From positions 1 through 38,709 of the forward strand of contig JAPLWK010000006.1 of assembly GCA_026396615.1 (NCBI GenBank): a stretch of 38,709 bases of DNA, given 5' to 3'. The stretch comes from a candidate division WWE3 bacterium (GTDB lineage: Bacteria; Patescibacteriota; WWE3; JAPLWK01). Position 1 is the stretch's first letter, and each line of letters opens with the position of its first letter. Of the stretch, positions 1,868 through 27,352 are shown one piece after another. Both the position numbers and the translations under genes were made by a program. Under the pieces are notes generated by a model. That model saw only the letters and a list, made by a program, of their open reading frames with translations. It did no database searches and was not told where the DNA came from.

Positions 1868-4800
1868 TTATTCACTACCAATAACTAACCAACTGAATGG
1901 CAAATCACTGGGAACTGGAGAGGTAGTCACTACTTTGAAGCTACTACCAGCTTTCTTTTCGATAACACCGAGCGTGGCGCTAGCAGTAGCCTCTGGGGTG
2001 AGCATAACTAGTGAAGTAGCTCCAATTCCGGTGCTGGGAACTACTAGTGTTTTGGTGCCGGCGAGTAGAACGGCGTGGCCGGCGTTGGAGGCGCCTTTGA
2101 CGTTGAAAGCTTCGGCGGTCACCGCTGTTGCCAGTAGACCCTTGCTATTCATTGTGATGTCGCCGTTTAGGAAGCTTAAAGTGCCGGAAAGCGAGTTGAT
2201 GGTAACGCCTCCCATTGGGTCTAGTCCATCAATAGTTAGCAAGCCGACGGTAATAGTGCCAGTGATCCCGACGTCGCCTAAAGTCGTCTTCCCGAGGACA
2301 TTGAGCTTCTTGTACATATTGACGTCAACATTGATTTTGCCCAGGTCAACTGCTGTCGTCGCGCCTGCCAACATCGCCGACGGAGAGGCCATTAAAGCTT
2401 TTAAGTCACTTAATTGGGTCTGTTGGGCTTTGGCGACTTCAACTAAAAAGCCGGCCATCTTGGGGTAGTCTAGTGATTCATAACCGTTGGCGTTGGTGCC
2501 CACTAATTCCGGCAGCACCGCTCCCACTTCCTGCGCAATCATACCCATTTCCCGCTGGCTGCCTAAATACTTAGCGGCATCAACCCCAGTATTCCAGTTG
2601 TAATAAACGCCGCGGAGCTTGCTTAAATCGTCAAGGACGTTAGTAGTGTCGCTGATTGTCACTATATTAGTTTTCAGTCGTTGATCCGAACTGCTGTTGG
2701 TTAAGTTACCATTGGCGTCAGAATAAACAGCCCGGTTGCCAGTGCCGCCCAGGTCCGAGACCGCCAGTTTTCCGGTCGGGGCGGCTACTCCAATGCCTAC
2801 ATTGCCAGCATTCGCATCAATAATTAAGCCGTAGCTGGTGCCGGAAGCTACTGTGCCGCCGGTGATTTTAAGGCCCGTCGAGGTCACCGTTCCGGTCGTC
2901 TGGGTGATATTAGGCATCGTAATATTTAGACCGTTCCAGGTATTAACGCCGGCGCCGGTATTTTGAATCAAGGCTCCACCCGTCACTGAAAGACCATTAT
3001 AAGAGTATGTGCCAGCTCCCGTGTTCGTAACCGCTGGCATGGCAATCGTTTGACCACTCACGTTAAAGCCCGCGGCGGTGTAGTTAGTTGAAAGGTCCAG
3101 ATTAAGCCCGGTCAAAGCTCCAGTCAAAACTGTGGCCGACGGGGCGTGCAGTAAACTTAGAGTTCCTGTTGTCTGCGTCGAAGCCACATCCAGCTTGGCA
3201 GCTGGCGTGATTGCACCTATACCAACTAAGCCTGCCGAAGTGACGTTGAATTTACCACCACCGACGTCAAAAGTGGTGGCGGGGGCAATCGTTCCAATTC
3301 CCACTCTGGAATTCGTCGCGTCTAGACTTAGTAAAGAAGTTAAACTTTGATTTTGGAAATTAAGAGCGTTCACATCGGTATTAAGCGTCCAGGCTTGATT
3401 TTGTTGCAGGAAGGCGCCGCCCGGAGAATCAAGAACAATTTGACCACTATTATATGTCACCAAGTTCAGGTTGTTGCTGGCATAGGTCGGTCCCGCGGTC
3501 AAATACAATGACGCCTTCGACTTGATGGTCGAGGCCGTCGTATTCGTGAAGGCCAGGTCATAAGCAATAGCGACGTCACCGGCCGCCGTAAAGGAAGTTG
3601 GCAGTCCGGCCGTTATAGCTGTCTGCGAAACGCTGAAGATACTATTAGTATTGTCAGTAATATTTAAAAGATTCCCAATCGTGCCATATTGACCAACGTT
3701 AATTTTGACCAAGTCACCAGTATTTACAATTTGCGTGCTACCTGCAGGCGACCAGTCAATGTTGGCTAAACTCCCTGTGAAAGTCGTATTCGTCAGGTTG
3801 GAGTTTACATTTAAGAGATGTCCGCTCGTTAAGTTGTTGCCGGAGGTGGCAATGTTGACAGCATCGCTGGTGGTGGCGGTTGACGGAATGCTGAGTCCGT
3901 CATTAGCGTTTGTTGGTGCCAGCGTCGTGCCCGTTCTATTCCAGTATCCAAGCACTCCAGTGGAAGCGGGATTAGCCCAAGTCAAATTACCAGCCGAGTC
4001 ATTCGTCAAAATAGAATTGGCAGCGCCCTGGGAAGCTGGGAAGGAAGTCGTGACATTATTTAACTTAACGATATTTCCTGTTGAGTTAACTTGGAATTGG
4101 GAAGAAGCGCCGACGGAGAAAGCCGAGGTGCTGTTTGTATTACCAATACCAACCGAACCCGTAACAAACAAGTTGGCATTGGTTGACCCGTCAGCTCTAA
4201 TGACCTGTAAGTCTGAGCCATTAACGGCCAAGGCTGGGAAACTGCTAGTAGTACCTCCAAAATTTAGACGAGTAAATCCAGTTGTTGCGTTATTGAGTAA
4301 GTTTATCACTCCGTCAGCCGTTGACGTAACTGTTGACCTCGCTGCCCATTGTAAATTACCACCAGCTGCAACATTTAAATTTCCACCGTAAATGGTGCCG
4401 GTGGCATTGATACCGCCGACAACATCTAATTTAACTGCTGGAGATGCCGTTCCAATCCCTACTCTATTATTAGTGCTATCGATGCTAAGAATTGACCCTA
4501 AACTGGCGTTTTGGAAATTAAGAGCGTTCACCGCGGTGTTTAAGGTCCAGTTTTGGGCCTGGTTCATGGTGGCGCCGCCAGCTAAATCGAGGACCAGTTG
4601 ACCGGAGTTAAAAGTCTGTAAACCTAAATTAGAGGAGTTGAAGGCTTCACCGGCAATCATCGACAAATTAGCAGCCGAGCGGATGTTGCCCAAAGTAGTA
4701 TTGCTGAAATTCAAGTCATAGGCCATAGTCGTGTCTCCCGCAGCATTAAAGGAGGCCGGCAAATTAGCGGTCAAAGCGGTCTGAGAAACGCTAAAAATAG

Positions 4801-7800
4801 AGTTGCCGTTGTCAGTAATATTTAAAAGATTCCCGATAGTGCCGTATTGACCAACGTTTATTTTGACGAGGTCACCAGTGTTTACAATCTGCGTGCTACC
4901 TGCGGGGGACCAATCGACGTTGGCAAGTGACCCGGTAAAGGTGGTGTTGGTGAGCGTTGAACTTAAGTTTAGAAGATGCCCCGATGTTAGCGTATTTCCA
5001 GAGGTCGCGATGTTTAACCCATTGCCGGTTGTGAGGGCGCTGGGAGTGACAGCGACAATATCAGTAGTCGTTGCCGTTGATGGGATACTTAAGCCGTCGT
5101 TAGCATTCGTGGGGGCGAGAGTGGTGCCCGTGCGGTTCCAATAACCCAAAATGCCAGTCGAAGCTGGGTTGCTCCAGGTTAGATTTCCAGCCGAGTCGTT
5201 CGTCAAAATAGAATTAGTGGCGCCTTGAGAAGCTGGGAAAGAAGTCGTGACATTATTTAATTTAACTATGTTACCTGTCGAGTTGACTTGAAATTGGCTC
5301 GAAGCGCCGACGGAGAAGGTCGAGGTTGGTGTTGTCGTTCCCACGCCCACCAGACCCGCTGAAGTAACATTAAATTTGCCACCGAGAACGTCAAAAGTGG
5401 TCGCTGGGGTGGTCGTTCCAATTCCAACATTTCCGGTGCCGGTCATAATGGCTAAATTATTGTTATAGCTGGTAGATATTTGCGCCAAGCCGTTATTACC
5501 GAAAGTCAAGTTGCTACCCATGGTAAAGTCACCAGTCGATGAAAATTTATAGTTTGGTCCGTGGAGGTAGAGCATGCCGGTGCCGTTGGGATCAATGGTT
5601 AAACCCTGATTGGTGGCTAAAGTTTGAACCACCGCGGAATTATCAAAACGAACGCCGCCGCTGGGATTGTCGGTCGCCCCAACAGCGATCCAGCCAACGT
5701 CCTCCGAGAAAACGTAACCGGTGGCAATGCCGGTGTTGACGTTAAAGATGACATTGCTACCGTATAAAGTAAAATCAAGGAAATTGCCGGTGTTTAGCAC
5801 CTTGGCCTTACCGGTGACAACGCCGGTACTCATGTTTACATTTACCGGTCCGGAACTGTTATCTACAGTGCCAAAAGCCACCCAGCCAACGTCTTCCAAA
5901 AAAGCGTAGCCGGAGAGGTTGCCGGTGGCGTGATCGAGGCTAACACTACTATTATAGTTACTAAAATCCAAATACCCGGTACTGTTTAAGACGGCGGCTC
6001 TTCCTGTGAATTGATAGGAAAGACCGGAGGTGCTTTTGTTGCCGAGAGTCATATCCCCACCAATAATAGTGGCGTTGCTTTGAATGTTGCCAACGACATC
6101 AAGTGGCGTCGCTGGTGTGATAGTGCCAATGCCGACTCTACCGGCCTTTAAATATAAGGTGTTAACAACGGCACCAGCTTCAATGCTAGTAAGGGTGGCG
6201 ACCGAGTTTTGGGTCAAAGTAAAATCAGCGTTAGGTGTTAGACCGGTGATTCCCGATAAACCCTCAGCAGCAGAAGCTCGGTTTAAGGCGTGAGCGGTAG
6301 TGCCGATGTACATCGTGGAACTATTAGCAGCATTGTCTCCAGTGTTAATACCAGTCACAGTAGCAGTACCGTTACCGATAAAGTTAGAACCGAGTTTTAA
6401 TGTAGCTGTCGCGTTGGCCATGTCTAAAGTTAATGTTCGACCAGTGGTAAGTGCTGTTGAAGAAGTGCCGGCGATAGTGACGTCGAAAGCGGCCGAAGTA
6501 TCACGAATGGCGAGACCAGTGAGTCCCGTCAGAGTGCCGCCGGTGATTCCAGGAGTTACTAACGATGGTGAAGTTGAATACACTATATTAGTAGTCGTTG
6601 TTCCAGTAGTGCCAGTGGCGGCGTTTAAGTAGTTCAGTTGCGTGCCGGTCGCAGTAACGGCGGTTGATCCTAGAGTGAAGCCGTTCGCAGCGGTGAGCGT
6701 CGAACTAAAAGCGCCGGTGCCGGTAACGTCAAGGGTTGCCAAAGTGGGGTTGGTGTTGCCAACTCCAAAACTCCCGGCGACCCAAGATTTTCCCAGCCCA
6801 TTGATGTTCAGGTTACCGCCGTCAGTAATGTCGCCGGTCACTCCGAGCGTCGAACTTAAAGTGGTGGCGCCGGTGACTCCTAAAGTATCCGTAAAAACAC
6901 CGGCCCCAGTCGCTTTAAATGTGCCGGCGACGTACAACTTAGTAGTAGGAACGAGAATTCCAATGCCCACATTGCCCTCAAAAATGGCGCCGCTGGTGGG
7001 AGCGGCACTGTTTTGGTAAGTAGCCCCAACGGCCAGGTCCGTCGTGCTAAGTTTGGATCCCGGGGTGATGGTGCCGATACCAACGTTGCCGTTATCATAA
7101 ATATGGCTACTCGTTAACATGTAAGTATCGGTGTAAACGGGCACGTACCCGAGAACTCCACTACCGCCAATGGAGCCAGAAAGACCAGCGCAGTTTCCCG
7201 TATCTACGCAGATGCTCCCCGAGCGGTTGGGGAGGGTGTAGGTGCGGTCGGCGGTCAGGTCAAGACTGGAAATAGTGCCGGTATGTTGAACGGCGCCGGC
7301 CGCGGCCGGTGAAATTATAATAGTGTCGCGAGCGGTACTGCCGCCGCCAAATTGAATGTCGCCAGTTGGTGTCACTGCCAAGTATTTAAGAGTGCCGGCG
7401 TTGTCAATTACATTAAAAACGTCAACTGAGCCGGCGGCGGCTTGCTTAACAGAGAGCCCGGTGGCGTCCGCTTGACCGGCCGTAATAGTTTGAGTGGCGT
7501 TAGGATTTTTAATGACGCAGTTAGGGCAGATGCCACCAGGATTGGTGAGTTCGCCCCAAGAAGGTTTACCTTGACTATTAACTACCATCACTTGGTTTTC
7601 GGTGCCAGCTCCCAAAGTAGTTAAAGTATTGGCAGCGCTGGCGTACAGCATCGCTCCTTCGGTAATGGCGGCCAGACCAGTGCCACCGTGTGTTACTCCC
7701 AAAGTGCCGGTGACTTCACTGGCCAGGTTAACGTCGCCAGTTGATAGCACTCCCGCTAAACTACTGCGAACAACTCCGTTATCTAATCCCGAAAAAGTAA

Positions 7801-9433
7801 TCGTACCGGATGACGTCAGTCCTGTTCCTCCCGTGATCGCGCCGGCGTTGGTAATGCCACCGCCGTTATTATTAATGCCGCCGGTAATGCTAGCGCCAAC
7901 AACCCTTAGAGTGCCATTAACGTCAAGGGTGTACTGCGGATCGTTCGTGCCAATGCCGATTTTGTCGCCAATAGTTGAGGGGAACAACTTACCACCGTTC
8001 CTGCTCCAGTAACCAATGGTGCCGCTGGTCCCGCCGCCAATCCATGTCAAACCTCCTGAGCCATCGTTCTGTAACAGGGCATTAGACAGCCCCTGCGTCG
8101 TTGGCCATGAATAGGGGATTCCACGGATTCCGGACAGATTTCCACGGATAGTGGTATTGCCGGTGAGGTCAGAAGTTCCTGTCACAGCAAGGTTACCGCT
8201 GACTGTCGCCGAGCCGCCGACGCCAAGGTTCTTATCTAAAGTAACGTCATCGGTAAAGTGGCCGGTGCCAACGACGTCAAGCTTACTCGTAGGTGTGGCG
8301 GTACCAATTCCCAGCATGTCTGTAAGGCTTGTCATATATAATGTGCCATTACCTTGAGTCCATTTTATGGGAGTAAAGACCGTTGCCACGTGCCCACTCA
8401 AGCTGACCGTGGTGTCACCACTACCAATCATTTCAAAGTAGTCAGTATTGCTGCCAGCCGTTAGTGTTGCGCCACCAACCCGGAACTCTTTAAAGATGTT
8501 TTGACTGGTGCCTTTGTCAGTGTTTGTCACCGTGTCGCCGCTAAGAGCCAGACCGGGACCAACTTTTAGAGTAGCGTCGCCGGTCTGCCCCAGAAATGAC
8601 AAAACGCCAGTGTTGGTAATAATGGGATTTTGACCGGTCGAAACGCTAATTCCCGGTCCGGCGGCCACACTATATAAGAGGTTAGACGCCGCCACCGTTT
8701 TGGCGGTAATGGTTTGGCCAGAAGCATCTATTGATGCCTTAAAAATAGTAGGCACTGCGAAGGTCATGGTGGGGGTGGTTTTAGTTGTAGTGGCGGCAAG
8801 AACCTGAGCTAGACCCAGATTTTTGACCGCTGGTTGTTTTTCCGATTTTCCCAGTAATGTTAGCCCCGTTTTTGCTTGATTAATTCCATTTTCCAGACGA
8901 CCGTAAATTCCTCCGGCGCCGTTGTATTTAAGAGCGGCGACACCAAGCAGGGTGACGGCCAGCATGGCAAGCAGGCTGGCGAATCGCAAACTCTGCGTTA
9001 CATTTGTTCTCGCAGGAACGTCGGGGTACAGTATTTCTTCCGGGGTTGCGTTCAACAACAACGTAGGGGTCGCATTCATGCGACCCTCGGCCGGTTGGAT
9101 CGAGGGCCGGATAAATCCGGCCCCTACGTATGGTAAAACGTGGTCGACAGAATGAACCATCGGCCCGCTCACGACTTGATTTCTTGATTGGATTGCCTTC
9201 TTGTTACTAACTTCTAATTTGTAGGCTTTGAGTTTTTCGGCATCGCTGGCTTTATATAAACGACTGCCGTTTGCATCTCTTTGAGACTCCAAAATACCTT
9301 CAGATTCCCATCGACGAATTGTAGATGCCGAAACACCCGAAAGGGCTGAAAGTTCGCTTGGTGTCAAGTTAAAATTGGCAGTATTTTCCATGAGCAGTTT
9401 TTGGGGCATATCGAAGATTTCTATACTTCTCAC
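1868..9433 (-). CDS. Giant surface protein: MerR-like HTH, TM segment, VGIGT-repeat stalk, peptidase S74 domain
   Basis: 2521 residues. Residues about 20-70 form a MerR-type winged HTH (LTPSELSALSGVSASTIRRW, then GSRLYKASDAEKL). Residues about 148-169 are a membrane segment (LRFASLLAMLAVTLLGVAAL). The rest is an extracellular Gly/Thr/Ser/Asn-rich stalk with about 13 copies of a VGIGT-x2-P-x4-LDV motif, as in tail fibres and CPR adhesins. Near residue 2248 begins an S74 intramolecular chaperone/autoprotease domain (SSDQRLKTNI), followed by about 170 more residues that self-cleavage could separate. A genomic palindromic repeat is inserted in frame at residues 102-125, between HTH and membrane. 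The GTG start lies about 13 nt after a consensus -10 box; ATG at 9409 or 9391 are alternatives and the HTH is intact with any of them. Attachment is the likely role; whether the HTH binds DNA is unknown. Confidence 0.85.
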   Translation of the reverse strand: MRSIEIFDMPQKLLMENTANFNLTPSELSALSGVSASTIRRWESEGILESQRDANGSRLYKASDAEKLKAYKLEVSNKKAIQSRNQVVSGPMVHSVDHVLPYVGAGFIRPSIQPAEGRMNATPTLLLNATPEEILYPDVPARTNVTQSLRFASLLAMLAVTLLGVAALKYNGAGGIYGRLENGINQAKTGLTLLGKSEKQPAVKNLGLAQVLAATTTKTTPTMTFAVPTIFKASIDASGQTITAKTVAASNLLYSVAAGPGISVSTGQNPIITNTGVLSFLGQTGDATLKVGPGLALSGDTVTNTDKGTSQNIFKEFRVGGATLTAGSNTDYFEMIGSGDTTVSLSGHVATVFTPIKWTQGNGTLYMTSLTDMLGIGTATPTSKLDVVGTGHFTDDVTLDKNLGVGGSATVSGNLAVTGTSDLTGNTTIRGNLSGIRGIPYSWPTTQGLSNALLQNDGSGGLTWIGGGTSGTIGYWSRNGGKLFPSTIGDKIGIGTNDPQYTLDVNGTLRVVGASITGGINNNGGGITNAGAITGGTGLTSSGTITFSGLDNGVVRSSLAGVLSTGDVNLASEVTGTLGVTHGGTGLAAITEGAMLYASAANTLTTLGAGTENQVMVVNSQGKPSWGELTNPGGICPNCVIKNPNATQTITAGQADATGLSVKQAAAGSVDVFNVIDNAGTLKYLAVTPTGDIQFGGGSTARDTIIISPAAAGAVQHTGTISSLDLTADRTYTLPNRSGSICVDTGNCAGLSGSIGGSGVLGYVPVYTDTYMLTSSHIYDNGNVGIGTITPGSKLSTTDLAVGATYQNSAAPTSGAIFEGNVGIGILVPTTKLYVAGTFKATGAGVFTDTLGVTGATTLSSTLGVTGDITDGGNLNINGLGKSWVAGSFGVGNTNPTLATLDVTGTGAFSSTLTAANGFTLGSTAVTATGTQLNYLNAATGTTGTTTTNIVYSTSPSLVTPGITGGTLTGLTGLAIRDTSAAFDVTIAGTSSTALTTGRTLTLDMANATATLKLGSNFIGNGTATVTGINTGDNAANSSTMYIGTTAHALNRASAAEGLSGITGLTPNADFTLTQNSVATLTSIEAGAVVNTLYLKAGRVGIGTITPATPLDVVGNIQSNATIIGGDMTLGNKSTSGLSYQFTGRAAVLNSTGYLDFSNYNSSVSLDHATGNLSGYAFLEDVGWVAFGTVDNSSGPVNVNMSTGVVTGKAKVLNTGNFLDFTLYGSNVIFNVNTGIATGYVFSEDVGWIAVGATDNPSGGVRFDNSAVVQTLATNQGLTIDPNGTGMLYLHGPNYKFSSTGDFTMGSNLTFGNNGLAQISTSYNNNLAIMTGTGNVGIGTTTPATTFDVLGGKFNVTSAGLVGVGTTTPTSTFSVGASSQFQVNSTGNIVKLNNVTTSFPASQGATNSILTNDSAGNLTWSNPASTGILGYWNRTGTTLAPTNANDGLSIPSTATTTDIVAVTPSALTTGNGLNIATSGNTLTSGHLLNLSSTLTNTTFTGSLANVDWSPAGSTQIVNTGDLVKINVGQYGTIGNLLNITDNGNSIFSVSQTALTANLPASFNAAGDTTMAYDLNFSNTTLGNIRSAANLSMIAGEAFNSSNLGLQTFNSGQLVLDLAGGATMNQAQNWTLNTAVNALNFQNASLGSILSIDSTNNRVGIGTASPAVKLDVVGGINATGTIYGGNLNVAAGGNLQWAARSTVTSTADGVINLLNNATTGFTRLNFGGTTSSFPALAVNGSDLQVIRADGSTNANLFVTGSVGIGNTNSTSAFSVGASSQFQVNSTGNIVKLNNVTTSFPASQGAANSILTNDSAGNLTWANPASTGVLGYWNRTGTTLAPTNANDGLSIPSTATTSDAVNIATSGNNLTSGHLLNVNSNLTNTTFTGSLANIDWSPAGSTQIVNTGDLVKINVGQYGTIGNLLNITDNTNSIFSVSQTAITAGLPTSFTAAGDVAIAYDLAFTNTTASTIKSKASLYLTAGPTYASNNLNLVTYNSGQIVLDSPGGAFLQQNQAWTLNTDVNALNFQNQSLTSLLSLDATNSRVGIGTIAPATTFDVGGGKFNVTSAGLVGIGAITPAAKLDVASTQTTGTLSLLHAPSATVLTGALTGLNLDLSTNYTAAGFNVSGQTIAMPAVTNTGAGTYSYNGLSVTGGALIQNTGAGVNTWNGLNITMPNITQTTGTVTSTGLKITGGTVASGTSYGLIIDANAGNVGIGVAAPTGKLAVSDLGGTGNRAVYSDANGNLTNSSSDQRLKTNIVTISDTTNVLDDLSKLRGVYYNWNTGVDAAKYLGSQREMGMIAQEVGAVLPELVGTNANGYESLDYPKMAGFLVEVAKAQQTQLSDLKALMASPSAMLAGATTAVDLGKINVDVNMYKKLNVLGKTTLGDVGITGTITVGLLTIDGLDPMGGVTINSLSGTLSFLNGDITMNSKGLLATAVTAEAFNVKGASNAGHAVLLAGTKTLVVPSTGIGATSLVMLTPEATASATLGVIEKKAGSSFKVVTTSPVPSDLPFSWLVIGSE
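3300..5310 (-). repeat. Two long diverged internal repeats in the adhesin stalk
   Basis: The segments at about 3300-4110 and 4450-5310 are homologous along their length, offset by about 1.16-1.20 kb. Both encode the series LxLDxTNxRVGIG, ...GSLANVDWSPAGSTQIVNT..., ...ILGYWNRTGTTLAPTNAND. The second contains a short extra stretch (around VAVTPSALTTGNG). It is probably a tandem duplication that has since diverged; such repeats promote length variation by recombination. Confidence 0.75.
9060..9130. repeat. Palindromic repeat family A, in frame inside the adhesin gene
   Basis: Outer arms ACGTAGGGG and CCCCTACGT enclose two inner hairpins (TCGCATTCATGCGA and CCGGATAAATCCGG) and a CCCTCG/CGAGGG pair. 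Here it reads in frame as a roughly 24-residue peptide between the HTH and the transmembrane segment of the giant surface protein. Confidence 0.85.
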
Positions 9434-10629: not shown

Positions 10630-11478
10630 ATGCGTAAGTTTCTAATATATTCCTCCCTCATTATCCTCACGCTTTTTGTGATCTTTAAAGTTGGTGGGGC
10701 AGTCCTCGCCGAACAAAGTGGCTCTTCTCCCGATTCCGGTGCCAGTACTTCTAAAATTAAAACTATTTCCACCGCCGTCGCCGCTCTTAGCTACGGCTCC
10801 ATAAGTGCTGGCACTTGGGGCGACTGGGGTACTATGTGGAATCGGATTTACTCCGCGGCTATTGTGGGTTTTAATGACTCTTTAGTGGCTGGTTTAAAAA
10901 ATGGTAGCGGCACTGGTACCATTGTGGCTTACACTAAGGCTCTCGGCGGGGTAGACGACTACAACTACAACCAAACCATTCCCAGCGATACATACAAAAG
11001 AACTTGGGTCACTTGTAATTCCGGTAATACCTATTGCGGCACCGGTCGCAGCGTTCTTAACGGTTTAGTGTCTCAGGATCCCAACACTAATTTGGTCTGG
11101 AGTCCTCAGATTAATGCCTCTAGTACCTGGTTTGTCGCTAATAACTGCATTCCCCCGGGGAGTAGTGGTAATTTGGGATATCCGGCGGGCACTTGTGTTA
11201 ATAATGGTGATGTTTCCTGTGTCTGCGTTAAAAATACCAGCCCTAAAACCGGTTGCGAAAATTACGATGACGGCTTATGGCGTTTGCCGTACCAAAAAGA
11301 GTTAATGCAATCTTATATCGATGGTTCTTGGGGCAACCTGGCTACCGCCAGTGCGTATTACTGGGCGTCGGCTACGACCAGTAACGCTACCCAGTACGCC
11401 TGGTACACGTTCCAGGCCAGTGGGTACACGTACACCAACAGTAAGACGGTTACGTACTCTGTTCGTTGCGTTCGCTAG
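10630..11478 (+). CDS. DGR target protein: membrane-anchored/secreted protein with C-terminal lectin-like variable domain
   Basis: 282 residues from the ATG at 10630. Residues about 2-24 form a hydrophobic signal/anchor (KFLIYSSLIILTLFVIFKV). The middle is Gly/Ser/Asn-rich with several cysteines (TCNSGNTYCGTG, NNCIPPG, GDVSCVCV). The C-terminal part has the DUF1566-like pattern GLWRLPYQKELMQSYIDG... ending SVRCVR, a C-type-lectin-type fold used by many DGR targets. The last about 44 residues are encoded by the variable repeat. Residues differing from the template are mostly Tyr, Ser, Thr, Ala, Phe and Val in place of Asn. The likely role is a diversified surface binding protein; the ligand is unknown. 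It faces the RT cassette convergently and is followed by a terminator. Confidence 0.88.
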   Translation: MRKFLIYSSLIILTLFVIFKVGGAVLAEQSGSSPDSGASTSKIKTISTAVAALSYGSISAGTWGDWGTMWNRIYSAAIVGFNDSLVAGLKNGSGTGTIVAYTKALGGVDDYNYNQTIPSDTYKRTWVTCNSGNTYCGTGRSVLNGLVSQDPNTNLVWSPQINASSTWFVANNCIPPGSSGNLGYPAGTCVNNGDVSCVCVKNTSPKTGCENYDDGLWRLPYQKELMQSYIDGSWGNLATASAYYWASATTSNATQYAWYTFQASGYTYTNSKTVTYSVRCVR

Positions 11479-11484
11479 CCTTGG
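11343..11484 (+). repeat. DGR variable repeat (VR)
   Basis: 142 bp aligned without gaps to the reverse complement of 13744-13885. I count 21 differences in 17 codons, and at every one the template has adenine: A to G, C or T. The last roughly 30 bp (CTCTGTTCG...GCTAGCCTTGG), which include the stop codon, are identical and would serve as the initiation-of-mutagenic-homing region. Of 18 AAY codons in the template, 16 are altered in the VR. Confidence 0.95.
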
Positions 11485-11591
11485 CCTTTTGAAATTTTGG
11501 CCGATTTGGATTTTTGGAACGTGGGGTTTTGGTGGTTGCTTTTCCTAAACTTCTGTGGTATCTTAATGCTACAACAAGTTACCAGCGACAA

Positions 11592-11672
11592 ATTCCCGGG
11601 TCGGGAAAAGTTAGCCGCAAGGCAAAACTAACTGGGACACTGACCTCGCCAATAGGCGAGGTTTTTATTTGG
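11592..11672 (+). terminator. Hairpin cluster and rho-independent terminator after the DGR target
   Basis: TTCCCG-GGT-CGGGAA (about 11593-11607) and GTTAG...CTAAC hairpins precede a strong terminator, CCTCGCC (11644-11650), AATA, GGCGAGG (11655-11661), followed by a T-run. The run of three structures could be a 3' UTR fold or, for the first hairpin, a DGR target-site hairpin; the latter is speculative because it lies about 110 bp beyond the VR. Confidence 0.7.
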
Positions 11673-12243
11673 AGACACTCTCTAAAGCAGATTGGAGAAG
11701 ATAAATCCCGGCAATTCGCTGTTTCTTCTGAAGCTTTTTAAGTAGACTCTGGGCCAACTCTTCGTTCGGTTTATCGTAGCAATATCGCACCAAACCAGCT
11801 ATGGAATCGGCCAGCTGGATACCGACATTGCCAGTACTGCGAACGGTTTTCAGTCTCCAAACTTCAATGCCTCTGTCCCGTAAAACCTTTTTGAGTTTTT
11901 GCTCGTACCACCGGGGCTTTTTACCATCAATGACGATTGTTCTGACTATTGGTTCGGTAATTAATTGTTTAAAAACGGCTTCAATCATTGCTTGTGGGTG
12001 AGCGGGATTCTTAAAGACTGCTACTTTAACAACAAAATCTAACCCGGAGATCTTATTGAGAAATTTCTCGCGCATAAACCATCTTTCTTCAGCCCAGTGG
12101 AAGTAAGCAATTCGAAGATCCCTTTCGATCTGAGTTAAATCCGCTTCAAACTTTTCTTTATTAATAACCTGAACGTAAACAACTGCGGTTGTAGTGTGGC
12201 CTTCCTGCTTATGTGTTCCTGATTCGTCAATGAAAACAACCAC
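11665..12243 (-). CDS. DUF3800 protein coupled to the DGR reverse transcriptase
   Basis: 192 residues. The N-terminal VVFIDESGTH and C-terminal VGIQLADSIAGLVRY are the two hallmark motifs of DUF3800, a family that I recall being placed in the RNase H-like superfamily, with acidic residues (here D6, E7 and the late D of QLAD) as candidate metal ligands. The GTG start overlaps the last base of the RT stop codon (TAGTG), implying translational coupling, so this is the last gene of the DGR cassette. DGR RTs have no RNase H domain; a partner that processes the RNA/cDNA hybrid would make sense but is inference. No SD sequence is needed if ribosomes reinitiate. DUF3800 proteins also occur alone, so its role here is not established. 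Confidence 0.8.
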   Translation of the reverse strand: MVVFIDESGTHKQEGHTTTAVVYVQVINKEKFEADLTQIERDLRIAYFHWAEERWFMREKFLNKISGLDFVVKVAVFKNPAHPQAMIEAVFKQLITEPIVRTIVIDGKKPRWYEQKLKKVLRDRGIEVWRLKTVRSTGNVGIQLADSIAGLVRYCYDKPNEELAQSLLKKLQKKQRIAGIYLLQSALESVSK

Positions 12244-13379
12244 TAATTTAGTTTAGCAGATTTTTTAATTCTTAAGTGATGGTAATTTCCCACAACCACA
12301 ATTTTCGATTTAATTTTTAAACTCAAATGCTTTTCGATTAGGTGCTTCCTTAACCGCCCAGTACGGGCTTTTCCAAAATGACCAAAGTACGAATTTAACG
12401 AGGCTACAGCTTTTGTTACATCGTTACGCTTGTTAAATCTGTAAATTTTATTCTTAGCCATTTTAACCACGTTGCGTCGCACCGTAATTCCCCAGGGCTT
12501 AATAAAATAACCCACAAACGCCACACCGTGGCGCGTGGGCTGAATTTGTTGTTTGCGGGGATGTAATACTAGATACAGGCGATCTTTCAAAAATGAAGCT
12601 ATCTCGTTACGCCAGACTTTAATATCTTCTATAGAATCGCTAAAAATTAAGAAGTCGTCGACGTAGCGACCATACGCTTTGCAACCCAACTCATCTGTTA
12701 CAAAATGATCCAGTTCGTTTAAGTAAACATTGGCTAAAAATTGGCTGGTTAAATTACCTATCGGTAGTCCAACTTCCGGTTCCTGATCAAAAAGCGATTT
12801 GCCGGTCGGCACCAGCTTTTTTAAAGCCGGATCGCCTTTGTAATAATAATTTTGAGTGGGGTTATTAAAAATGATGATCCTTGCTAACCACAGAACTTCT
12901 TTCTGCCACCATTCCGGCCTTAATTTGGAGGCTATAATTTTTGAAAAGATTTCATAAAGAGTAGACTTGTTAATGTTGGAAAAGAAACTGCTGATGTCGA
13001 ATTGTCCGTAATAGTCATAGTTCTTCACAAACTCCGCGACCCGTAAAGCGCCAAAATGATGGCCTTTATTTTTACGACAGGCGTAAGAATCGGTTATGAA
13101 AATTTGTTTTTCCCAAATTTGCTGGACTTCGTTTATAAGAATGTGGTGAGTAACGCGGTCGCCAAAGTCGGCCGCAAAGATTTCGCGCGGCTTGGGCACA
13201 GTCACCACAAAACAAATCGAGCGGCCCGGTCGATAAGTCCTAGTCTGCAAAGATTCTTTAAGGTCGACTAAATTATTTTCTAAATTTAATTCATACTTAA
13301 GGGCATTGGTGGTTTTACGCTTAGTTTCGCGGCAATCATAGTAGGCTTTAAGGATATTCGCGACGGTAAAAATGGTCAT
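12243..13379 (-). CDS. DGR reverse transcriptase
   Basis: 378 residues, the usual size of DGR RTs. Conserved blocks in order: RPGRSICFVVTVPKPREI, QFDISSFFSNI (126-136, first catalytic Asp), GLPIGNLTSQFLANVYLNELD (204-224, with the [IVL]GxxxSQ pattern that separates DGR RTs from group II intron RTs), and YGRYVDDFLIF (catalytic YVDD, 239-242). It makes mutagenised cDNA from the TR transcript for transfer into the VR. The ATG directly abuts the TAA of avd upstream, and the TAG overlaps the DUF3800 start, so avd, RT and DUF3800 form one tightly coupled unit. All catalytic residues are present. Confidence 0.95.
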   Translation of the reverse strand: MTIFTVANILKAYYDCRETKRKTTNALKYELNLENNLVDLKESLQTRTYRPGRSICFVVTVPKPREIFAADFGDRVTHHILINEVQQIWEKQIFITDSYACRKNKGHHFGALRVAEFVKNYDYYGQFDISSFFSNINKSTLYEIFSKIIASKLRPEWWQKEVLWLARIIIFNNPTQNYYYKGDPALKKLVPTGKSLFDQEPEVGLPIGNLTSQFLANVYLNELDHFVTDELGCKAYGRYVDDFLIFSDSIEDIKVWRNEIASFLKDRLYLVLHPRKQQIQPTRHGVAFVGYFIKPWGITVRRNVVKMAKNKIYRFNKRNDVTKAVASLNSYFGHFGKARTGRLRKHLIEKHLSLKIKSKIVVVGNYHHLRIKKSAKLN

Positions 13380-13726
13380 TTAAACCTTTGCGACCCAACT
13401 CCCAATCATTTTTCCAATTTCCACAATGTCCTCCGAAATAGCGGCCGCTTGGTTTAAAGAGATTAATTTAAGCTCAGAAAGAAATCTTACGCGGAGTTTA
13501 AAAGAGTCGAATTGTTGATTTAGATTGTTAACAATCGCATTTTTACTCGCCCCCCCCCTCCGCCGATTTGGGCGGCAATAAAAAGGTCAATTAGCTCCCA
13601 ATTGCGGTTAATAATGTCTTGTCCAAGCGAAAACTTATACTCTTTTGGAAGGCTTTTCACAATTAAATACTCCGTTTTAAGGAGGTTCAGAAGCTTAAGG
13701 TACAGGGGCATGTTCTGGTAGAACAT
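13380..13726 (-). CDS. avd: DGR accessory protein Avd, reading frame broken at a G9 tract
   Basis: The first frame (from ATG 13726, or 13711) gives ...LPKEYKFSLGQDIINRNWELIDLFIAAQIGG, the Avd pattern of helices 1-2. It meets a run of nine G (minus strand; C at 13550-13558) and then stops at 13520. In another frame, directly after the run, comes ...SKNAIVNNLNQQFDSFKLRV RFLSELKLISLNQ...VEIGKMIGSWVAKV, the expected helices 3-4, ending with TAA next to the RT ATG. Ten or seven G would restore one frame of about 115 residues, the normal Avd length. Avd is a four-helix bundle that binds RT and template RNA and is required for mutagenesis in studied DGRs. Either the tract is a sequencing/assembly error, or length variation switches Avd on and off. 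Confidence 0.85.
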
Positions 13727-13743
13727 CGCTCTTAGTTTAAAGT

Positions 13744-13885
13744 CCAAGGCTAGCGAACGCAACGAACAGAGTTCGTATTCGTCTTATTGTTGTTGTTCGT
13801 GTTCCCATTGTTCTGGTTCGTGTTCCAGGCGTTCTGGGTATTGTTACTGTTCGTAGTCGACGCCCAGTAATTCGCATTGGCGTTA
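13744..13885 (-). repeat. DGR template repeat (TR)
   Basis: 142 bp, Asn-codon-rich (18 AAC/AAT codons in the VR frame), homologous to the VR in the target gene. It lies directly 5' of avd on the same strand, the usual position, so one transcript could serve as template RNA and mRNA. An AAGGAGG motif about 90 nt upstream of the TR precedes an open frame that crosses the TR, but I do not think that frame is a gene. Confidence 0.95.
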
Positions 13886-27055: not shown

Positions 27056-27352
27056 CTCTTTTTAAATCAATTCCCAAAATATTCCTCTAAATTCCTCTTA
27101 GGCTTAGCGGACAAAATTTGTCGATCGGCAAGAAATGTCACTGACAAATAGCAGCACGTGCAGTAAGTTGGGACGCTCGTTTCGCTCGCTACCAATTTTC
27201 TAGGCGAAAATTGTTAATCTATTAAAAATGACAAATCTTAGCGTATGCATAATTCTGTCAATTCGAAGATAGCTTGGAAAAGAGGAACGCCGCGAGTTTA
27301 AGTTGACAGTTGTCTTCTTATTCTCACGGCGCGCAGTGGTTACTGCAAGGTT
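27056..27352. other. Intergenic region with a half regulatory palindrome and a dispersed repeat fragment
   Basis: No gene seen. It holds GACAAATAGCAGCACGTGC (27143-27161), identical to the left part of the palindrome at 38028-38057 but with a degenerate right half, and GCTCGCTACCAATTTTC (27184-27200), which recurs inverted inside the tRNA-like sequence at 33377-33393. Confidence 0.6.

Follow-up and report, generated by a model that had tools for sequence, protein, structure and literature searches.

Is the run of nine G residues that splits the avd gene of a DGR from a candidate division WWE3 bacterium a contingency tract, able to switch hypermutation on and off, or does it reflect a consensus error, the decay of the gene or a recoding site? 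The question was examined in the whole stretch of DNA carrying the cassette (38,709 nucleotides, hereafter the window), in the remainder of the genome and in DGRs of other Patescibacteria. The reading that we consider well supported, short of certainty, is that G9 serves as a contingency tract in avd, the accessory gene of a DGR located on the chromosome, and that it represents one case of a habit of Patescibacteria.

Organization of the DGR cassette

The components of the cassette are collected in Table 1. The best sequence match of the reverse transcriptase (RT) in the PDB was 8ub7, the RT of the BPP-1 DGR RNP (2.7e-38), as expected for a DGR-type RT. Comparison of the template repeat (TR) with the variable repeat (VR) revealed 25 substitutions inside the repeat of 147 nt, every one of them located at a TR adenine (11 to T, 8 to G, and 6 to C). 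The cassette is a genuine DGR, and the restriction of the substitutions to adenines indicates that it has been active. The target protein has an apparent signal sequence at its N-terminus and is assigned as C-type-lectin-like, with the VR at the 3′ end of its gene, on the basis of the Lcl_C/FISUMP domain match only, without a fold model. A search for a second avd or RT elsewhere in the WWE3 genome found none.

Table 1. Coordinates of the DGR cassette and of the two parts of avd in the window.
Feature	Position	Strand	Remarks
Target (variable protein) gene	10630..11478	+	Lcl_C/FISUMP domain C-terminal, PF07603 2.5e-10
Variable repeat (VR)	11343..11489	+	Covers 3′ end of target gene
DUF3800 gene	11665..12243	-	PF12686 1.5e-8; abuts RT, immediately downstream
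DGR reverse transcriptase	12243..13379	-	378 aa, intact; RVT_1 5.8e-15
avd (whole, split)	13380..13726	-	3′ end directly before RT start at 13379
avd 3′ part, helices 3-4	13380..13558	-	bAvd 29.4 bits, profile 57-106
avd 5′ part, helices 1-2	13520..13726	-	bAvd 27.2 bits, profile 7-49
G9 tract inside avd (+ strand: C9)	13550..13558	-	Candidate contingency tract
Template repeat (TR)	13739..13885	-	147 nt; directly upstream of avd

Several other elements were observed in the window. The DUF3800 and DGR RT genes share one base, 12243, at which the RT gene ends and the DUF3800 gene begins, an operon-like arrangement. A 2521-aa open reading frame with internal repeats of ca. 300 nt, located at 1868-9433 on the minus strand, probably encodes a large repetitive surface protein. 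Dispersed palindromic elements of ca. 72 nt were found at positions 9059, 9539, 9798, 10186, 16248, 22032, and 25347, following the pattern CGTAGGGG-stem-CCCTCG...CGAGGG-stem-CCCCTACG, with inner stems that vary from copy to copy as if exchanged. A further palindrome, GACAAA-N-AGCACGTGCT-N-TTTGTC, is repeated at 27135, 29576, 36303, 37269, and 38020, near several gene starts, and looks like the operator of one regulator.

The avd gene is split at a G9 run

A preliminary description of this DNA had proposed that avd is split by a G9 run, with the halves encoding helices 1-2 and helices 3-4 in separate frames, and that joining these frames gives an Avd of normal length ending flush with the RT start. 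Both proposals were borne out. The frame of the 5′ part reads MFYQNMPLYLKLLNLL...ELIDLFIAAQIGGG and reaches a stop codon shortly past the tract, and the 3′ part lies in a frame shifted by -1 or +2, with the Avd motif EIGKMIGSW intact downstream of the break. The joined sequence matched PF22296 (bAvd) with 62.3 bits, above the cut-off of 40, in comparison with the lower scores of the separate halves (Table 1). It also matched NF033474 (Avd) over profile positions 2-103 of 104 (2.6e-19), with a score of 69.5 bits that remains under that profile's own cut-off of 80. The AlphaFold model of the joined Avd is a helical bundle (pLDDT 92) in which the G run falls in an interhelical loop, so that the tract is predicted to encode poly-Gly in the loop linking helices 2 and 3. 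The closest PDB folds to this model were BPP-1 Avd (Foldseek 4dwl, TM 0.73/0.84) and the DGR RNP. As judged from these profile matches and the model, the joined product would be a normal Avd with a four-helix bundle like that of bAvd.

A pattern search of the 825,990 bases of the genome showed that, besides the G9 of avd, no run of at least 8 G or C exists. Since ca. 10 such runs would be expected under independent base composition, long G/C runs are avoided in this genome. The probability that a lone run falls by chance in avd is ca. 4e-4, and in avd plus RT ca. 2e-3.

Simple repeats recur in avd and RT genes of Patescibacteria

RT-based searches at the class and phylum levels yielded 37 genomes with a DGR-like RT. 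It has to be noted that no other genome of the genus, family or order of the window was present in the comparison, so that variation of the tract within its own lineage was not observed. In 21 of the 37 genomes, avd or RT contained a simple repeat of the type C7-C14, G7-G10, (GA)n or (CA)n, and both genes were repeat-free in the remaining 16. An avd alignment, used in a further scan, retrieved 80 loci, Patescibacterial wherever the organism was named to that level. In most of them the leader and the core of avd are separated by C7-C14, and in two by (GA)10 or (CA)16. This set is biased, as tract-bearing avds had served to build its seed alignment, and the figure of 21 in 37 is the fairer one; the statement that most avds carry poly-C was discarded as overstated for the same reason. 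The occurrence of different units at a single avd site suggests that slipperiness, and not a given sequence, has been kept. A conserved RNA or protein element behind the poly-C was rejected, since (GA)n and (CA)n occupy the equivalent position.

The density of repeats was determined in a set of 122 loci, including a few related helical proteins other than Avd and a few partial duplicates. There were 87 repeats in 166 kb of avd and RT sequence vs 18 in 582 kb of flanking DNA, a 17-fold difference (p ~1e-39). Among DGR loci from viral collections, repeats were present in only 2 out of 61, both nearest in sequence to Patescibacterial avds. In view of the relatives, neither chance nor error is a likely general cause of the repeats. 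The data also support, far more strongly than the window could by itself, the suggestion of the preliminary description that the run is a contingency tract, with dozens of Patescibacterial avds carrying a 5′ tract of C7-C14, (GA)n or (CA)n in random phase. The same description held that intact, tract-free avds in relatives would refute this suggestion: such avds do exist in some relatives, so that the refutation is met to the letter, but several of these have a repeat in the RT instead.

The RT gene was often the repeat-bearing one where avd has no tract, with repeats from (GA)8 to (GA)27. The (GA)n repeats are located at the N-terminus (L043, L068), 5′ of the YLKMDIKSFF motif (L041, L050, L062, L067) or 5′ of the GIPIGNLTSQ motif (L026, L053, L060, L061, L208). 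In four cases (G026, L062, L026, L208) the RT is split precisely at the repeat, and the remaining repeat-bearing RTs are in frame. The RT of G026, which shows the highest identity to that of the window (55%/49% over two halves), is broken exactly at G10, and the other splits occur at (AG)18, (GA)16, and (GA)8. Further RTs have (GA)n in frame at loops where others are split, so that both intact and split states occur. In L207 the break in the RT is located at a T7 run, and in L187 it is due to a plain stop codon without any repeat.

In an RT tree, the window grouped with RTs carrying dinucleotide repeats and with the G10-bearing RT, outside the large group with poly-C at the avd 5′ end. The repeat states require 23-27 changes on this tree, less than was obtained with shuffled labels but many more than a single origin would need. 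The tree was a quick build with many weak branches; with this reservation, the repeats appear to have arisen separately several times, and the tract in the avd loop of the window is probably a separate invention.

A different arrangement was observed in a locus with two DGRs (L171), where a G9 at 2904-2912 abuts a TATAAT-like box upstream of a gene for a secreted protein near the DGR, and a G10 at 1055-1064 is located just upstream of the second avd start. Promoter-type phase variation of DGR-linked genes is possible in this case.

Reading phase of the avd leader

Frames were assigned by a simple start-codon rule in which the leader ATG was chosen irrespective of frame. The leader ATG was in frame with the avd core in 15 out of 62 tract-bearing avds (15, 21, and 26 in the three frames), a distribution compatible with random, leaving 47 avds in the OFF phase. 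On the contrary, the leader ATG was in frame in 31 of 34 tract-free avds (p = 1e-10). When only tract-free cassettes with a homologous leader were considered, all 9 of 9 were in frame (p = 2e-5 against the same 15 of 62), which indicates that the leader is probably translated and that the tract disconnects it. The predominance of the OFF phase among the sampled avds fits with a rarely used machine. Over 3.7 kb, the only differences between the loci L188 and L191 are C11 vs C10 in the tract and a run of 25 N bases; the two possibly derive from the same reads.

In divergent cassettes (L188, L191, and others), the avd leader is located antisense to the N-terminal part of the RT, with a head-to-head overlap of the two 5′ ends that is seen in many Patescibacterial DGRs. 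The tract of these cassettes is located just upstream of the RT start and may also influence the expression of RT.

Alternative explanations for the split

A consensus error, with a real tract of different length and an unbroken avd in this population, remains possible although we regard it as doubtful. A G9 homopolymer is a typical site of sequencing and assembly error, no reads were available, and the C11/C10 disagreement involves two assemblies that resemble one population. Error does not explain, however, why the only long G/C run of the genome should be in avd, or why varied repeat units recur in the avd and RT genes of many relatives. Without reads, miscalled bases cannot be ruled out for this single genome; such an error would be compatible with a contingency tract, which would stay in place with only its recorded phase changed. 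The evidence is in fact stronger for the general pattern of repeats than for the current phase of the window genome, for which only the consensus exists. Irreversible slippage in a decaying avd pseudogene of a dying DGR is hardly credible: the avd frame is closed, and the L187 RT was lost without any repeat, but the avd of the window has no further lesion and keeps EIGKMIGSW beyond the break, its RT is intact, and the TR/VR substitutions are all at adenines.

Recoding of the G run, through -1 ribosomal frameshifting or transcriptional slippage, would provide a constant low dose of full-length Avd. The shift needed is indeed -1, G GGG GGG would permit tandem slippage, and nine G residues should be sufficient for polymerase slippage. 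We nevertheless consider this explanation improbable, because no stimulatory RNA structure was found downstream of the tract (fold z = -0.18), the leaders of relatives occur in all three frames so that no single recoding event suffices, and dinucleotide tracts occupy the tract position in relatives. A dedicated recoding site is thus unlikely, and some leakiness by transcriptional slippage could still exist. As for the divergent cassettes, the antisense position of the leader and the proximity of the tract to the RT start would be consistent with a tract that mainly tunes RT expression through leader or promoter spacing, with the avd frame being incidental. This proposal cannot apply to the window, where the tract is inside avd, or to repeats inside RT, and tract-free avds keep the leader in frame; it has very little to recommend it.

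A model for stochastic control of hypermutation

The proposal of a phase-variable DGR starts from what was observed, namely the tract, the split, the recurrence of repeats at several sites, their random phase, their rarity elsewhere and one pair of loci distinguished by tract length only. According to this proposal, slipped-strand mispairing during replication would alter the number of G residues by one or two per event. One length class in three would then give full-length Avd, and the others would truncate the protein after helix 2, so that tract length would set a cell lineage as hypermutating or silent, reversibly and with no regulator. Transcriptional slippage may yield intermediate levels. 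In BPP-1, Avd is required for DGR activity, and inactivation of Avd, RT or TR reduces repair to ca. 1e-9 (PMC12875486). On this ground, a frameshift in Avd or RT should stop hypermutation, and slippage back should restore it. The slippage rate, the switching in cells and the effect on mutagenesis are inferred.

By extension, Patescibacterial DGRs would tend to carry one simple repeat in an essential component, either poly-C or a dinucleotide repeat at the 5′ end of avd, or a tract in an avd loop as in the window, or a repeat in the RT, at its N-terminus or loops ((GA)n or poly-G). We think it likely, with somewhat more reserve, that this reflects a Patescibacteria-wide stochastic control of hypermutation, with repeats gained repeatedly at different sites of avd and RT, a random minority of cells diversifying and the rest freezing the target. 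If true, it would be a second-order bet-hedging, a mutation-rate switch run by mutation. How useful target variants escape destruction by chromosomal DGRs has remained an open question, and a heritable, reversible and regulator-free OFF switch would be a simple answer. The proposal predicts mixtures of tract lengths in reads and VR diversity tied to the ON phase, both of which can be checked in public metagenomes.

As the preliminary description had surmised, such switching seems undescribed: searches of the openly licensed literature turned up no account of DGR genes that vary in phase through homopolymers or other repeats, and DGR papers screened by keyword made no mention of it. No report of phase variation in Patescibacteria was found in the openly licensed literature either. 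The proposal would extend phase variation to this group and place contingency loci on a mutator, not on a surface structure.

Comparison with known systems

Many of the relatives found here are, like the members of the Patescibacteria-only DGR clade 2 (Roux et al. 2021, PMC8144416), Patescibacterial chromosomal DGRs, although membership of that clade has not been established. Homopolymers, frameshifts and phase variation are not mentioned in the main text of that paper. The window shares with the DGR of Bordetella phage BPP-1 (avd-TR-brt, mtd) the presence of Avd, RT, TR, and VR, the adenine-specific substitutions and the Avd fold (4dwl, 8ub7). It differs in being located in a bacterial genome bin and not in a known phage, in having the TR upstream of avd, with avd and RT abutting, and in the slippery tract of its avd. 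With homopolymer contingency loci, such as those of Neisseria and Campylobacter, it shares a coding homopolymer of at least 7 whose length sets the frame; a poly-C tract of this kind is also found in mga of group A Streptococcus (PMC10330708). In contrast to these loci, where the switched gene encodes a surface antigen, acts in the glycosylation of one or is a regulator, the gene concerned here is a part of the mutagenesis machine, and slippage in the window is without experimental proof.
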